Assembly (NCBI RefSeq): GCF_026805545.1
Contig: NZ_JAPRFR010000001.1
Coordinates: forward strand, 992,001 to 1,056,000
DNA length: 64,000 nt
Direction of reading: 5' to 3'
From: Aerococcus kribbianus
GTDB taxonomy: Bacteria; Bacillota; Bacilli; Lactobacillales; Aerococcaceae
Each line of letters begins with the position of its first letter. The first letter of the stretch is position 1. The notes beneath the pieces are model-generated. The model made no database searches, was not told the DNA's origin, and saw only the letters and a program-made list of their open reading frames with translations. A program made the position numbers and the translations under genes. Shown here in pieces: positions 53,816-58,881 of the stretch.

Positions 53816-53908
53816 AAAGCAAAACGGCGCTAGGGGGACCTAGCGCCGTTTGCTTATCTTTCATTTTGGGAGGAGAAAGATATGAAGAAAAGTTTTTCTA
53901 TTGGGTAT
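53816..53908 (-). ncRNA. Putative anti-Shine-Dalgarno small RNA, copy 1
   Basis: The minus-strand transcript (about 90 nt) would start near 53908. It contains the hairpin ATCTTTC / GAAAGAT (53856-53881) whose 12-nt loop reads UCCUCCCAAAAU, complementary to GGGAGGA. It ends in a 13-bp terminator stem (53822-53834 / 53839-53851) followed by TTTTGCTTTT. The segment before the loop is complementary to an idealised GGAGGAGAAAGAT-AUGAAG start region. Two further copies share every element. It resembles CiaR-controlled csRNAs of streptococci in plan, not proven by homology. Confidence 0.68.
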
Positions 53909-53914
53909 GTTTAT

Positions 53915-53946
53915 ATAATAGTGGCTAGATGTGAATTTCCTGTGAC
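53915..53946 (-). promoter_or_regulatory. Response-regulator-type promoter of small RNA copy 1
   Basis: On the minus strand GTCACA (53946-53941), 5 nt, TTCACA (53935-53930), 9 nt, and -10 TATTAT (53920-53915). A direct repeat with an 11-bp period just upstream of the -10 is the layout of OmpR-family regulator targets such as CiaR, WalR or PhoP. Confidence 0.6.
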
Positions 53947-54002
53947 TAATTTGTCAAAAAACGATAGATTTTTTGTTGTGATTTTATCACTATTAATAAA
54001 AC

Positions 54003-54176
54003 AGGATGAGATGAAAAACGATTAGCCTCAAAGAATTTGTCTGAAAATGGGAAGTATTCGCAGAATACTGACTCATTTGCAGAAAATACTGATGGGGCTG
54101 TTTTTCAGAACTAAACTAAGAGATAAATGTCCGTATATCCTAATGAGGCTGGGACTTTTGTCCCAGCCTCATTAGA
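54003..54176. repeat. Modular hairpin repeat, locus R6, with terminator
   Basis: The module pairs GAAAAAC-GAT-TAGCCTC with GGGGCT-GTTTTTC, the same plan as other loci but with different helix sequence and a GAT bulge. Inner stems involve AGTATTC / GAATACT. The final hairpin TAATGAGGCTGGGA (54141-54154) / TCCCAGCCTCATTA (54161-54174) is a 14-bp perfect stem that probably terminates the minus-strand gene at 54187. Confidence 0.75.
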
Positions 54177-54186
54177 TTAATAGGAT

Positions 54187-54705
54187 TTATTTTTCTAAAA
54201 CGTCTACGATTGCTTTGTCAAAGGCAGGTAAGTCATCTGGTGTACGGCTTGAAACGAAACGACCGATTTCATCGATGACAACTTCTTCATCAAAGAAGTT
54301 ACCGCCTGCATTGATGACATCAATTGCCACTTGTTTCACAGCGGTTAGGTTCTTGCCGTTTAAGACACCAGCATTTACTAAGAGTTGTGGGCCGTGGCAA
54401 ATAGTGAAAATCCATTTGCGTTGCATGGCAAAATGACGGACAAAGTCTAACACTTGGTCATCTTTTCTTAATTTGTCTGGTGAATAGCCACCAGGGATAA
54501 GTAGGGCATCATAATCAGCCGGATCTTCATCGGCGACTGCTTTTTCAATTGTTGCTTCAACGCCATCTGTTTTACCAGTCACAGTTTGGCCGGCTTCTAA
54601 GCCTAGGGTAACCACTTCATGACCAGCGGCTTCGAGTGCTTTTTTAGGTTCAGTGTATTCAGAGTCTTCGAATAATTCGGTGAGAACTGTTGCAATTTTT
54701 ACCAT
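54187..54705 (-). CDS. DJ-1/PfpI family protein (general stress protein 18-like)
   Basis: The 172-residue protein shows the PfpI pattern: a beta strand with DYDALLIPGGYSPDKLR, the nucleophile elbow cysteine in FTICHGPQLLVNAG, and the family C-terminus RTPDDLPAFDKAIVDVL. Members act as proteases, glyoxalases or deglycases, and the function is usually stress-related. It is a single-gene unit with the R6 terminator downstream. Confidence 0.9.
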   Translation of the reverse strand: MVKIATVLTELFEDSEYTEPKKALEAAGHEVVTLGLEAGQTVTGKTDGVEATIEKAVADEDPADYDALLIPGGYSPDKLRKDDQVLDFVRHFAMQRKWIFTICHGPQLLVNAGVLNGKNLTAVKQVAIDVINAGGNFFDEEVVIDEIGRFVSSRTPDDLPAFDKAIVDVLEK

Positions 54706-54806
54706 AATTAGCCTCCTTTAAGCTTACTAAGTCCATCATAACGAATAAGCCAATCCAGTGTAAAGAAAAGCGACTCAGTCTGAGCTGAATCGCTGTTAGG
54801 GAACTA

Positions 54807-55364
54807 TTACAGAATTAAATAAATCATTCCACCCACCAGTCCCGTAGAGAGCATGATGAGAATGGGATCGAATTTAGTTTTACGCAGGCAGATAAAGGCT
54901 AGGATAAAGAGGACTAAAGCCACATAATCGAAGGGGGCTCCTGGGAGCTGACTAGTATCTACCAAGGCTGTTTGCAAGATTGAAATCCCAGCCGAAGCGA
55001 TAAAGGCCACGATAGCAGGTTTCAAACTATTTAGTAGGGCTTGGACTGCATCGAGTTGTTTATGGCGGTTATAGATGTAAGCTAAAGTCATGACTAAAAT
55101 AACAGATGGCGTGATGAAGGCTAGGGTGGCGACCACAGCACCAGCAAAGCCTGCTAAACGAATTCCGATAAAGGTGGCGGAGTTAATGGCAATCGGTCCT
55201 GGGGTCATTTGCGCAATGGTAATCAAGTCAGTGAATTCACTAATGGATAACCAGGCATGGGTGTCCACAATCTGTTCTTGTATTAACGGAATCGCTGCTA
55301 AGCCGCCCCCAATAGAGAAGAGTCCAATTTGAAAAAATACGATAAATAATTGTAGGTAAATCAC
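54807..55364 (-). CDS. chrA: Chromate transporter, ChrA short form, second subunit
   Basis: The 185-residue membrane protein begins with GTG at 55364 after GAGGAGG. It holds the ChrA domain once (FFQIGLFSIGGGLAAIPLIQEQIV; TIAQMTPGPIAINSATFIGIRLAGF), with about six spans. Short ChrA proteins come in pairs and work together. Chromate export is the named function of the family, but the natural substrate here is unknown. It overlaps the first subunit by one base. Confidence 0.88.
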   Translation of the reverse strand: MIYLQLFIVFFQIGLFSIGGGLAAIPLIQEQIVDTHAWLSISEFTDLITIAQMTPGPIAINSATFIGIRLAGFAGAVVATLAFITPSVILVMTLAYIYNRHKQLDAVQALLNSLKPAIVAFIASAGISILQTALVDTSQLPGAPFDYVALVLFILAFICLRKTKFDPILIMLSTGLVGGMIYLIL

Positions 55365-55936
55365 TATTTTTGCACCTCCTCTTTGTTTTTGCGCCAATAA
55401 TAGAAGGCCATACCGGCGATAGCACAAATAAAAATAATATAGATAATATTAATATCTAAGAAATAAACAGCGATGAAGGCAAAAATCATCGTCAGTAGGG
55501 AAAAGCTGCGTTGAAAACTTAAGGCATTATGAGCAAGATCTAAAACGACATCGATAATAACGGCAGCCACACCAGCCTGCATGGCCTTCAAAATAGCGGC
55601 CACAACCAGGTTGTCACGAAAAGCTTCATAGAAGAAGGAAATCACCGAAATAACGATAAAGGGAGGGAGAATGGTACCCAAAACAGTAATGGCTGCACCC
55701 ACCCAACCTGCCATTCGGTAGCCCACCAAGATTGACGCATTAATGGCGACGGCCCCTGGTGTGGATTGGGCAATAGTAGTGTAGTCGAGAATTTCATTTT
55801 CTTCTAACCAACCGAGTTCATCGACGAATTTATTTTTCATTAGGGAAATAATAACGAACCCTCCGCCAAAGGTAAATGCCGATAAGACGAAGGTGGAAGT
55901 AAATAACTTCCAATATAAGTGTTTACGGTCTTCCAT
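55364..55936 (-). CDS. chrA: Chromate transporter, ChrA short form, first subunit
   Basis: The 190-residue protein has the same single ChrA domain (FTFGGGFVIISLMKNKFVDELGWL; TIAQSTPGAVAINASILVGYRMAGW). The paired motifs FGGG and QSTPGAVA correspond to those of the following gene, so both descend from one half-size ancestor. The last codon (TAG) shares its G with the GTG of the partner. No chromate or sulphate regulator is near. Confidence 0.88.
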   Translation of the reverse strand: MEDRKHLYWKLFTSTFVLSAFTFGGGFVIISLMKNKFVDELGWLEENEILDYTTIAQSTPGAVAINASILVGYRMAGWVGAAITVLGTILPPFIVISVISFFYEAFRDNLVVAAILKAMQAGVAAVIIDVVLDLAHNALSFQRSFSLLTMIFAFIAVYFLDINIIYIIFICAIAGMAFYYWRKNKEEVQK

Positions 55937-56057
55937 AAGAGCATCCTCTCTTCATTTTCTCTAGTATAAGTCTATCATTTACCAGAGCAATGAGCGATAT
56001 CAAAAATCGGCAAATTTCTAATTAAAGTGCATTAAACTCACCTAGACTTCCATTAAA

Positions 56058-56151
56058 GCAAAAAAACAGCCAGGTGGGAGACCTGACTGCCTTTTATAAA
56101 TCTTTCATATTGGAGGAGAAAGATTATATGAAGAAAAGTTATATTTGGTAT
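56058..56151 (-). ncRNA. Putative anti-Shine-Dalgarno small RNA, copy 2
   Basis: The minus-strand RNA of about 95 nt has the hairpin AATCTTTC / GAAAGATT (56099-56125) with loop UCCUCCAAUAU. Its terminator stem (56067-56075 / 56081-56089, one mismatch) runs into TTTTTTT. The terminator sequence differs entirely from copies 1 and 3, while the hairpin and the region complementary to an initiation site are conserved. Confidence 0.68.
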
Positions 56152-56157
56152 GTTTTT

Positions 56158-56189
56158 ATGGTAGCGAGTAGTTGTGAATTTTTTGTGAA
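56158..56189 (-). promoter_or_regulatory. Response-regulator-type promoter of small RNA copy 2
   Basis: On the minus strand TTCACA (56189-56184), 5 nt, TTCACA (56178-56173), 9 nt, and TACCAT (56163-56158). The direct repeat is perfect. The -10 is poor, which fits dependence on an activator. Confidence 0.6.
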
Positions 56190-56312
56190 GATATTGGTAA
56201 AGAAATATGTTTTTTCTTGCTGTAATTAGTAGCAAAGGAAACAAAAAACTGAACTAGCGTTGAAGCACACTCCTAAATGAACTATAATAATCATATTATA
56301 TAATAGCGTTTT

Positions 56313-56327
56313 TAGAAAGCGGTTTAT
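56313..56327 (+). promoter_or_regulatory. Weak cre-like site upstream of nanE
   Basis: TAGAAAGCGGTTTAT keeps the GAAAGCG core of the catabolite-responsive element and departs at two or three outer positions. It lies about 110 bp before nanE, close to an AT-rich possible promoter (TATAATAG at 56300). Otherwise the 500-bp gap holds only small RNA copy 2. Confidence 0.3.
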
Positions 56328-56435
56328 CTGATGGGAAGTGAAGAGCCACAAGCATTTAGACCACTAATAAGATTTAATTATGAAAATGACTAATAGAGTC
56401 ACAAGTTTAATGAGTAAAGAAAAGGAGTTATTGAA

Positions 56436-57134
56436 ATGGAAAAACAAGCATTGCTCAAACAAATCAATAATGGATTAATTGTCTCTTGCCAAGCCCTACC
56501 TGGGGAACCACTCTATACGGAAACAGGTGGTGTGATGCCCCTACTCGCCAAAGCAGCCCAAGAAGCCGGTGCAGTTGGTATTCGAGCCAACTCAGTTAGA
56601 GACATTGAGGAGATAAAAGCCGCAGTTGACCTACCAATTATTGGAATTATTAAGAAAGATTATCCACCAGAAGAACCCTTTATTACCGCAACCATGCAAG
56701 AAGTCGATGAATTGGTTGCTACTGGGGTTGAAGTTATTGCACTCGATCTGACTGATCGCAAACGTCATGATGGGTTAACGGTAAATGAATTTATTGCGAA
56801 AGTTCTCAATAAATATCCTGACCAATTATTTATGGCTGATATTTCAACTTATGAAGAAGGCTTGAATGCCTTTGAACAGGGAATTCATTTCGTGGGAACA
56901 ACTTTAGCTGGTTACACCGATTATAGTGAAAACATTGATGGCCCTAATTATGATCTTATTGAGCGTTTAGTGACGAGTGGGGTGGATGTCATAGCAGAAG
57001 GTAAAATTCATACCCCACAACAAGCCAAGAAAATCCAAACTTTAGGTGTCGCTGGAATTGTTGTTGGTGGAGCGATTACTCGTCCCAAAGAAATTGCCGC
57101 ACGATTTATCGCGGCCTTAAATGAGGAGGGCTAA
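56436..57134 (+). CDS. nanE: N-acetylmannosamine-6-phosphate 2-epimerase
   Basis: The 232-residue TIM-barrel enzyme converts N-acetylmannosamine 6-phosphate to N-acetylglucosamine 6-phosphate. It shows [55 protein letters not shown] and [16 protein letters not shown], all NanE hallmarks. The PTS permease gene starts one base after its stop, so the permease likely imports the matching amino sugar. The product would need a NagA deacetylase, not in this window, before NagB. Confidence 0.93.
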
Positions 57135-57135
57135 T

Positions 57136-58638
57136 ATGTTTAAGAAATTTTCTCAATTAGGCCAGGCTTTCATGCTTCCCATCGCTATTCTTCCAGTGGC
57201 CGGATTGTTATTGGGTCTAGGGAGTGCCTTATCTAATGAAGCAGCAATCAGCCAGTTCCCATTTTTAGCTCAGTCTTGGTTACAGGCCACCTTGACTATT
57301 ATGACAATGGCAGGGAACACAGTGTTTACCAACTTACCTTTGATTTTCTCTATTGGTGTTGCAGTGGGTCTTGCCGATGCGGATAAAGGGACAGCCGGTT
57401 TATCAGGAGGAGTGGCCTACCTCGTTTTTACTGGAACAATTTCTGCCTTCTTGGAACTGTTTGCCGATGCGGATGCTAGCATTGATACTGGTGTGTTAGG
57501 CGCCTTAGTGATTGGGTTAACTGTAACCTTCTTACATAATCGCTACCGTAAGATTGAATTACCACAATTCTTAGGCTTTTTTGGGGGCAATCGTTTTATC
57601 CCGATTATTTCTGCCTTAGTAGCTATTGTTTTAGGTGGGATATTCTTCGCAATATGGCCACCGATTCAAAATCTGCTAGTGGTTTTAGGTGAGCACATTG
57701 CACAAATGGGTAGTATTGGTTCCTTTTTCTACGGCTTTTTCTTACGCCTGACAGGAGCAGTTGGTTTGCATCACACGATTTACCCACTGTTTTGGTATAC
57801 CTCTTTAGGAGGGGTAGAAACCGTAGCTGGTCAAAGTATCGATGGGGCGCAAAATATTTATTTTGCTCAATTAGCTGACCCTAATTATACTGGTCTCTTT
57901 ACTTATGGAACACGGTTTTTCGCTGGTCGATTTGCCACAATGATGTTTGGCTTGCCAGCAGCAACATTAGGGATGTACCATGCCATTCCCAAGGAAAATC
58001 GTAAGGAAAATGCAGGTTTTTATTTCAGTAGTGCTTTGACTTCCTTTTTAACAGGGATTACTGAGCCTATTGAGTTCTCATTTTTATTTGCAGCGCCTTG
58101 GTTGTATGTGATTCATGCCTTTTTAGATGGGGTATCCTTCTTTGTCGCTGATATCTTGTCTATCCGTATTGGGAATACCTTTTCTGGTGGGTTGATTGAT
58201 TTTCTATTATTTGGTCCTTTTCAAGGGAATGCACAAACGAATTGGATTCGAGTGATCCCAGTGGGAATTTTATGGGCATTGGTTTATTACTTTATTTTTA
58301 AAATCTTGGTCAAAAAATTCCAAGTTGCCGTACCAGGTATGGAAGTGGTGACTGATAAAGCTAAAGTGAATCAAAAATCACAGGCTAGTAATTTACATGA
58401 TAATGCCTTAGACATTATTAACCGTCTGGGTAGCGAAAATAACATTAACAATGTAACCGCCTGTGCCACTCGGTTAAGAGTCACGGTTAAGGACAAATCA
58501 AAAGTAGACAAGGATGGCTTAAAAGCAATGGGTGCCACTGCCGTCCTAGAAGTACAAGACGGTGTACAAGCTGTGTTTGGTGGTAAATCAAATATCTATA
58601 GTGCTGAGATTAATGAAATTTTAGAAGATGATCAATAA
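57136..58638 (+). CDS. PTS glucose-superfamily EIICB, probably for an amino sugar
   Basis: The ~500-residue permease starts MFKKFSQLGQAFMLPIAILPVAGLLLG. It has the EIIC of the glucose/N-acetylglucosamine group (GGVAYLVFTGTISA; LTGAVGLHHTIYPLFW; FLTGITEPIEFSFLF) and a C-terminal EIIB with phospho-cysteine in NNVTACATRLRVTVKD. No EIIA is fused, so it must borrow one. Tight coupling to nanE suggests N-acetylmannosamine as substrate; this is inference from context. A strong terminator follows. Confidence 0.86.
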   Translation: MFKKFSQLGQAFMLPIAILPVAGLLLGLGSALSNEAAISQFPFLAQSWLQATLTIMTMAGNTVFTNLPLIFSIGVAVGLADADKGTAGLSGGVAYLVFTGTISAFLELFADADASIDTGVLGALVIGLTVTFLHNRYRKIELPQFLGFFGGNRFIPIISALVAIVLGGIFFAIWPPIQNLLVVLGEHIAQMGSIGSFFYGFFLRLTGAVGLHHTIYPLFWYTSLGGVETVAGQSIDGAQNIYFAQLADPNYTGLFTYGTRFFAGRFATMMFGLPAATLGMYHAIPKENRKENAGFYFSSALTSFLTGITEPIEFSFLFAAPWLYVIHAFLDGVSFFVADILSIRIGNTFSGGLIDFLLFGPFQGNAQTNWIRVIPVGILWALVYYFIFKILVKKFQVAVPGMEVVTDKAKVNQKSQASNLHDNALDIINRLGSENNINNVTACATRLRVTVKDKSKVDKDGLKAMGATAVLEVQDGVQAVFGGKSNIYSAEINEILEDDQ

Positions 58639-58652
58639 AAGGATAGAAAAAG

Positions 58653-58698
58653 AAACGATTCATTTCGACTTTGAGATGTTTGAAATGAATCGTTTTTT
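58653..58698 (+). terminator. Terminator of nanE-EIICB
   Basis: The 14-bp perfect stem AAACGATTCATTTC (58653-58666) / GAAATGAATCGTTT (58682-58695) is followed by T6. Confidence 0.9.
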
Positions 58699-58756
58699 AG
58701 TCATAAAGATTATTGGGTGGAGTTGAAATAACACTTCTATAGTTATAAATCATAAA

Positions 58757-58843
58757 CAAAAACACCAGCTTCCATACTGGTGTTTTCGCTAGTTATCTTT
58801 CATTTGGGAGGAGAAAGATATGAAGAAAAGTTATATTTGGTAT
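58757..58843 (-). ncRNA. Putative anti-Shine-Dalgarno small RNA, copy 3
   Basis: The minus-strand RNA of about 87 nt has the hairpin ATCTTTC / GAAAGAT (58795-58819) with loop UCCUCCCAAAU. The terminator stem AAAACACCAG / CTGGTGTTTT (58759-58768 / 58777-58786) continues into TTTGTTT. The 25 nt around the loop are almost identical to copy 1. It is divergent from the NUDIX-helicase pair, about 90 bp from the NUDIX start. Confidence 0.68.
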
Positions 58844-58849
58844 GCTTGT

Positions 58850-58881
58850 ATAATAGGTGATAGAATTGAAGAAACTGTGAA
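58850..58881 (-). promoter_or_regulatory. Response-regulator-type promoter of small RNA copy 3
   Basis: On the minus strand TTCACA (58881-58876), 5 nt, TTCAAT (58870-58865), 9 nt, and TATTAT (58855-58850). The second half-site is degenerate, but the spacing is the same as in copies 1 and 2. Confidence 0.58.

Follow-up and report, generated by a model that had tools for sequence, protein, structure and literature searches.

What is encoded by the three near-identical intergenic loci (copies A, B and C) that lie on the minus strand of a 64,000-nucleotide stretch of the Aerococcus kribbianus genome? This stretch, here called the window, corresponds to C1:992001-1056000 of the 1.58-Mb assembly, and bare coordinates count from its first letter. 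We favor, with reasonable confidence, the explanation that the loci specify multicopy trans-acting RNAs of approx. 90 nt, which would be activated by a PieR-like regulator and would repress the translation starts of lipoprotein genes.

The initial annotation had proposed a common plan for the three loci, and every element of this plan was located. The promoter geometry is the same in all copies, (T/G)TCA-N7-TTCA-N11-TA(T/C)(T/C)AT: a direct repeat with an 11-nt period, the likely response-regulator site, is separated by exactly 11 nt from a −10 sequence, and a −35 sequence at the usual distance is absent. The predicted RNA, starting with 5′ AUACC(C/A)AAU, comprises a C/U-rich leader of approx. 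30 nt containing CUUUUCUUCAU, a hairpin of 7–8 bp (AUCUUUC-UCCUCC...-GAAAGAU) that presents UCCUCC in its loop, and an intrinsic terminator.

Copy A is a predicted RNA of 88 nt (53821..53908, minus strand, as are all features of the three copies; 76 bits with the R1 model), whose start was deduced from the −10 sequence and the conserved AUACC. Its direct repeat GTCACAGGAAATTCA (53932..53946) and −10 hexamer TATTAT (53915..53920, 11 nt past the second TTCA) were assigned with a promoter matrix, its hairpin ATCTTTC-TCCTCCCAAAAT-GAAAGAT (53856..53881) by pattern search and folding, and its terminator (53822..53851) by folding. The −10 sequences, hairpins and terminators of the other copies were identified in the same ways, and their direct repeats by matrix and pattern. 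Copy B (predicted 92 nt, 56060..56151; 68 bits) has the repeat TTCACAAAAAATTCA (56175..56189), the −10 sequence TACCAT (56158..56163), a hairpin with the UCCUCC loop (56100..56124) and a terminator (56061..56095) with a second UCUCCC in its loop. Copy C (predicted 86 nt, 58758..58843; 72 bits) has the repeat TTCACAGTTTCTTCA (58867..58881), the −10 sequence TATTAT (58850..58855), the UCCUCC hairpin (58795..58819) and a terminator (58758..58787).

In the RNA folding, the probability that UCCUCC is unpaired was 0.98 or higher for all three RNAs. The terminators of A, B and C bear no sequence relation to one another, while the hairpin and its fully exposed loop are kept, as originally noted. The complementarity that had been claimed to an idealized initiation site, GGAGGAGAAAGAT-AUG-AAGAAAAG, is exact in copies A and C and has to be qualified for copy B, which carries three extra bases (TAT) before the complement of ATG.

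A genome-wide search for the exact hairpin pattern returned A, B and C and nothing else (a backwards-read control gave 0). Of the 527 TCCTCC sites, four are looped out by a stem of at least 7 bp, and three of these are the same loci. A genus-trained weight matrix for the promoter also placed the three copies on top (27.0, 25.8 and 23.7; the next match scored 18.1); the matrix alone is unspecific, because the reversed genome yielded one chance match of 24.7. Scanning the genome with this matrix revealed no convincing regulon member beyond the three: the match of 18.1 was rejected as an ordinary promoter-like site, and another of 16.2 sits at the start of a regulator gene without a good −10 sequence. 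Rfam, at its gathering threshold, gave no match in the window, and our literature search found no small RNA (sRNA) study in Aerococcus.

Searches of related genomes, which the initial annotation had suggested, placed the family in Aerococcus, in other Aerococcaceae genera and in other Lactobacillales families. An exact 24-mer match in Aerococcus sp. HMSC062A02 had pointed to the genus. A pattern search revealed 29 copies in 11 of 15 Aerococcus genomes (1–5 per carrier; control 0), some of them close neighbors in several genomes. A body model restricted to the leader and hairpin, with the promoter and terminator excluded, recovers copies at E-values down to 1e-14, and a promoter and a terminator accompany the matches; a divergent candidate with the same promoter spacing (L136 of genome G007, missed by the pattern) was also found by this model. 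A wide pattern, TTCA-N7-TTCA-N11-TANNNT-N(20-50)-TCCTCC, is present in 33 of 76 Aerococcaceae genomes versus 4 when read backwards, essentially all of them in four genera (Aerococcus and three others). Outside the Aerococcaceae, about 15 genomes from four other families of the Lactobacillales have the full leader and hairpin, with terminators nearly everywhere; some additional matches of this search are due to chance.

Two copies in genome G004 (loci L011, L020, L175, L176) have 45–55 nt inserted after the conserved 5′ end, ahead of the leader core; the insert holds a predicted hairpin in one of them, and they represent a variant form of the RNA. CUCCC or UCCUCCC occurs again in the terminator loop of many Aerococcus copies (L017, L018, L023, L032 and others), which suggests a second possible site for binding the Shine-Dalgarno (SD) sequence, so that an RNA may have more than one such site.

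Comparison of the copies revealed that the UCCUCC loop is constant and that the stem varies (UAUCUUUC/GAAAGAUA, UUCUUUAC/GUAAAGAA, UUAUUUAC/GUAAAUAA, AAUAUUUA/UAAAUAUU), with compensatory changes at 6 of 8 stem pairs. The covariation score is 0.605; shuffled sequences gave 0.205 (standard deviation 0.034), and slid pairings did not exceed 0.19. For this count loops were trimmed and the best-complementing 3′ arm was taken, which biases it towards pairing. Apart from this choice, the stem changes are visible by eye in the listed sequences. The data support the assignment of the three loci and their relatives to a family of sRNAs with an exposed anti-SD loop.

What might such RNAs bind? Antisense complementarity of the leader covers SD-AUG-AAGAAA and, in most species, AUUGGGU within the signal-peptide codons of lipoproteins, with which the 5′ sequence AUACCCAAU pairs. 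Searching the genus with the body model also gave weak matches outside the family, and all 12 that were fetched (five Aerococcus genomes) were antisense to start codons. Nine of these 12 belong to lipoprotein genes, e.g. one opening with MKKFKLLGIGLTSALVLVACG, some of the 12 being mutual orthologues and thus fewer independent cases. Where Pfam gave an answer, the matches were OppA-type, family-3 (SBP_3) and NlpA-type binding proteins and a DUF4352 protein. In the genome of A. kribbianus, ATGAAGAAA opens 6 of 26 lipoprotein genes versus 7 of 1057 cytosolic genes (p=1.6e-7), and the leader-only pairing energy favors lipoprotein starts beyond 60 of 60 shuffled leaders. Long duplexes are predicted with a glucose-type phosphotransferase system gene (C1:218965), which is the sole near match to the 24-mer outside the sRNA family, with an alpha/beta hydrolase gene (C1:848497), and with genes for OppA-type (C1:327455) and NMT1-type (C1:207362) binding proteins. 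The leader, as antisense of the start codon and of lipoprotein signal-peptide codons, is therefore supported as a part that matters as much as the loop, and we infer from these complementarities that the RNAs act in trans by blocking translation initiation.

Two other readings of the loci were considered. The plus strand has a perfect SD sequence, proper spacing and an ATG followed by MKKS at 53882, 56128 and 58820, and ATG-AAG-AAA is retained in most copies, so that the loci could be taken for plus-strand leaders or short genes with an ideal ribosome binding site and a short MKKS... peptide. Over the 29 copies, however, this frame ranges from 8 to 36 codons, the ATG is absent in three copies, and the sequences following MKKS shift out of frame from copy to copy; the short open reading frames were rejected as genes on these grounds. 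Moreover, promoters and terminators point to the minus strand, and the compensatory changes keep the minus-strand hairpin. The plus strand would resemble a start site because such sites are what the RNA is complementary to; the plus-strand reading is largely refuted by the sequence comparison, and we regard it as extremely improbable. Alternatively, the RNAs may serve as decoys for the ribosome or for an RNA-binding protein, in which case the UCCUCC loop would imitate the 3′ terminus of 16S ribosomal RNA. UCCUCC is the anti-SD sequence itself, it is constant, and it is repeated in the terminator loop of several copies. However, a decoy has no need of a conserved leader, outside the loop, that is antisense to start-codon and signal-peptide codons, and this possibility appears very unlikely. 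The original claim of an sRNA family with an exposed anti-SD loop is supported by conservation across genera, by covariation, by the minus-strand promoter and terminator, and by the loss of the plus-strand frame.

Which regulator might act at the TTCA repeat? The genome encodes five OmpR-class regulators (WalR, PhoP-like, VanR-like, LisR/CovR-like and PieR-like), whose labels, WalR aside, rest on neighboring genes and resemblance. The PieR-like regulator (C1:889269-889994) is closest to NCBIfam PieR at 291 bits, which is below the curated cut-off of 450. Most of the Aerococcaceae encode an orthologue (identity of at least 59%, in a few cases 57%); the gene is present in the pattern-bearing genomes of this family and in 15 of 15 genomes tested from the other families. 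Two genomes of a family taken to be Streptococcus gave no match. The three other Aerococcaceae genera that bear the sRNAs were represented by 25 genomes, and in 22 of these the PieR-like gene is preceded by TTCA-N7-TTCA; the genomes are related and amount to about three genera of independent support. The element precedes the gene in 0 of 43 other genomes, and control spacings gave 0.75 matches on average. In 18 genomes, the distance from this repeat to a −10-like sequence is as in the sRNA promoters.

The same sRNAs might be activated by another OmpR-class regulator (LisR/CovR-, PhoP- or VanR-like), with the repeat upstream of the PieR-like gene reflecting cross-regulation. LisR drives LhrC in Listeria (PMC4132741), the PieR-like gene of Aerococcus lacks the repeat, and the PhoP-like regulator apparently recognizes a related one. 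The region upstream of pstS in this genome (C1:914200-914700) contains three TTTACA boxes with an 11-nt period (TTTACA-N5-TTTACA-N5-TTTACA), a PhoP-type box adjoining phoPR-like genes. However, the C of TTCA is constant across genera and the pst box is TTTACA, not TTCA, which led us to reject the PhoP-like regulator as the activator. Furthermore, among the regulator genes examined, the exactly spaced element was found at the PieR-like gene only, and it was not found upstream of the PhoP-like, LisR/CovR-like and walR genes of this genome. We therefore consider activation by one of these other regulators rather unlikely. CiaR is an improbable activator, its box being different and TTCA-N7-TTCA being present in all lineages; the regulator is probably PieR-like.

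Several observations weigh against repression of lipoprotein synthesis by PieR-activated RNAs. The TTCA repeat is absent upstream of the PieR-like gene in Aerococcus (these genomes are among the 43) and in the other sRNA-bearing families, and autoregulation was not seen in either. The gene prsA is a PieR target in Listeria (PMC12234432), and it lacks the TTCA element in all 25 genomes checked, so that it was discarded as a co-regulated gene. The assignment to the PieR-like regulator is for these reasons likely but not secure, and co-occurrence with the sRNAs was compared for this regulator alone. As regards targets, a longer messenger RNA (mRNA) window weakens the lipoprotein bias (p=0.019; 0.068 with the leader of another species). 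In the target prediction, which the initial annotation had recommended, the leader favors lipoprotein starts, but of the 60 best-ranked targets in this genome half are cytosolic, in a classification that uses crude gene calls and signal-peptide classes. The cytosolic half is explained by the SD part, which alone makes the prediction unspecific, and single predictions are consequently weak.

The explanation that we favor, sRNAs activated by a PieR-like regulator, can be formulated as follows. Envelope or secretion stress would activate the kinase adjoining the regulator gene, and an OmpR-class regulator, most likely the PieR-like one, would bind the TTCA direct repeat by the −10 sequence and activate sRNA transcription; the lack of a −35 sequence at the usual distance would fit activator-dependent promoters. 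The hairpin loop would offer UCCUCC to the SD sequence of target mRNAs, seeding a pairing in which the unpaired leader UUUCUUCAU would then zip onto AUG-AAG-AAA and, in most species, the 5′ ACCCAAU onto AUUGGGU of the signal-peptide codons. Ribosome binding would thereby be blocked, and the synthesis of exported lipoproteins (substrate-binding proteins) and of some other membrane-associated proteins would decrease, which may lower the export load under envelope or secretion stress.

If this is correct, Aerococcus and several other lineages of lactic acid bacteria would gain a post-transcriptional arm of an envelope-sensing system, with a set of targets at hand, and one design would connect separately known sRNAs (Ref84, LhrC and perhaps csRNAs). 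A leader mimicking the antisense of a lipoprotein start would provide an unusually direct handle on a whole class of exported proteins.

The window also contains, at 54005-54175, a dispersed repeat of approx. 170 bp, which begins with GATGAGATGAAAAACG(N)TTAGCC and ends here in a perfect hairpin, TGAGGCTGGGAC...GTCCCAGCCTCA. Its 16-mer occurs 14 times in the genome, in about a dozen cases with the longer sequence.

How does the family relate to known systems? Its nearest database relation is Ref84 (Rfam RF02846, Enterococcus sRNA 84). Members in other genera share with Ref84 the leader start UACCAA-ACAACC, a U-rich stretch ending in UUUUUCAUU, a (U)UUAC/GUAA hairpin, an ACUCCUU linker and a terminator, and both families are multicopy. 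Family members of one related genus reach 45–51 bits over the full length of the Ref84 model (gathering cut-off 52), while A, B and C gave no match at an E-value of 5. The Aerococcus copies lack the CUCC linker of the Ref84 layout (UACC-AAC leader, hairpin, CUCC linker, terminator), the Ref84 loop is CUUAU in place of CUCCUCC, and the TTCA promoter is absent at all of the 20 top Ref84 loci. The literature searched contained no paper on Ref84 function. The Enterococcus-like Ref84 loci (L347-L376) are multicopy, with 4–8 in several genomes of one genus, and have their own upstream element, GTTATTTTTA; another regulator may therefore drive them. No cut-off is reached by A, B and C, but the family is not isolated, its relatives in neighboring genera approaching Ref84.

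LhrC of Listeria (Rfam RF00616) is likewise multicopy and under envelope-stress two-component control, as is presumed for this family, and has a C-rich motif in loop A, in the linker and often in the terminator loop (PMC4132741, PMC8079631). Among the genes and products that it targets are oppA and surface proteins (PMC4132741, PMC8079631), and each of its RNAs has multiple binding sites (PMC8079631). Relatives of A, B and C align colinearly but weakly with the LhrC model (25.9–29.0 bits; gathering cut-off 110), so that homology is not established, and A, B and C themselves gave no match. LhrC is controlled by LisR, and a LisR/CovR-like regulator is also encoded in this genome; unlike in our family, a leader antisense to the start codon is not described for LhrC in the sources read.

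The likeness to streptococcal csRNAs, pointed out in the initial annotation, concerns the common logic: an 11-nt-period direct repeat just upstream of the −10 sequence and a set of short intergenic RNAs that carry a terminator and sequences complementary to SD and AUG (PMC3091779). In A, B and C these sequences are also unpaired in a short terminated RNA (UCCUCC at the probability given above, CAU in the leader). The resemblance does not extend to the box (TTTAAG-N5-TTTAAG for CiaR versus TTCA-N7-TTCA), to the nonamer [A/C]UCCUAAA[A/C], which is absent in A, B and C (one Aerococcus copy elsewhere, L018, has CUCCUAAAA), or to the reported regulator, CiaRH being reported only in streptococci and absent outside them (PMC3091779). 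Moreover, the anti-SD sequence is located in a loop in this family and between stems in csRNAs. As for the PieRS regulon of Listeria, the candidate regulator is nearest to NCBIfam PieR, yet prsA has no element here; the introduction of the Listeria PieR regulon paper names only protein-coding members.

Copies A, B and C thus fall within none of the Ref84, LhrC and csRNA definitions as judged by sequence, and intermediate members come close to Ref84. A further, tentative idea, which we consider possible but somewhat doubtful, is that a PieR-type secretion-stress two-component system in the Lactobacillales drives multicopy sRNAs antisense to lipoprotein starts and so reduces the export load on a stressed envelope, as a Gram-positive counterpart of the sigma-E-dependent sRNAs by which outer-membrane proteins are switched off; LhrC, Ref84 and this family would then form one ancient superfamily. 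Multicopy, two-component-controlled sRNAs targeting translation starts are already known in kind, and what seems to be new is the promoter code, the probable link to PieR, the spread across the Lactobacillales and the leader that is antisense to lipoprotein starts.

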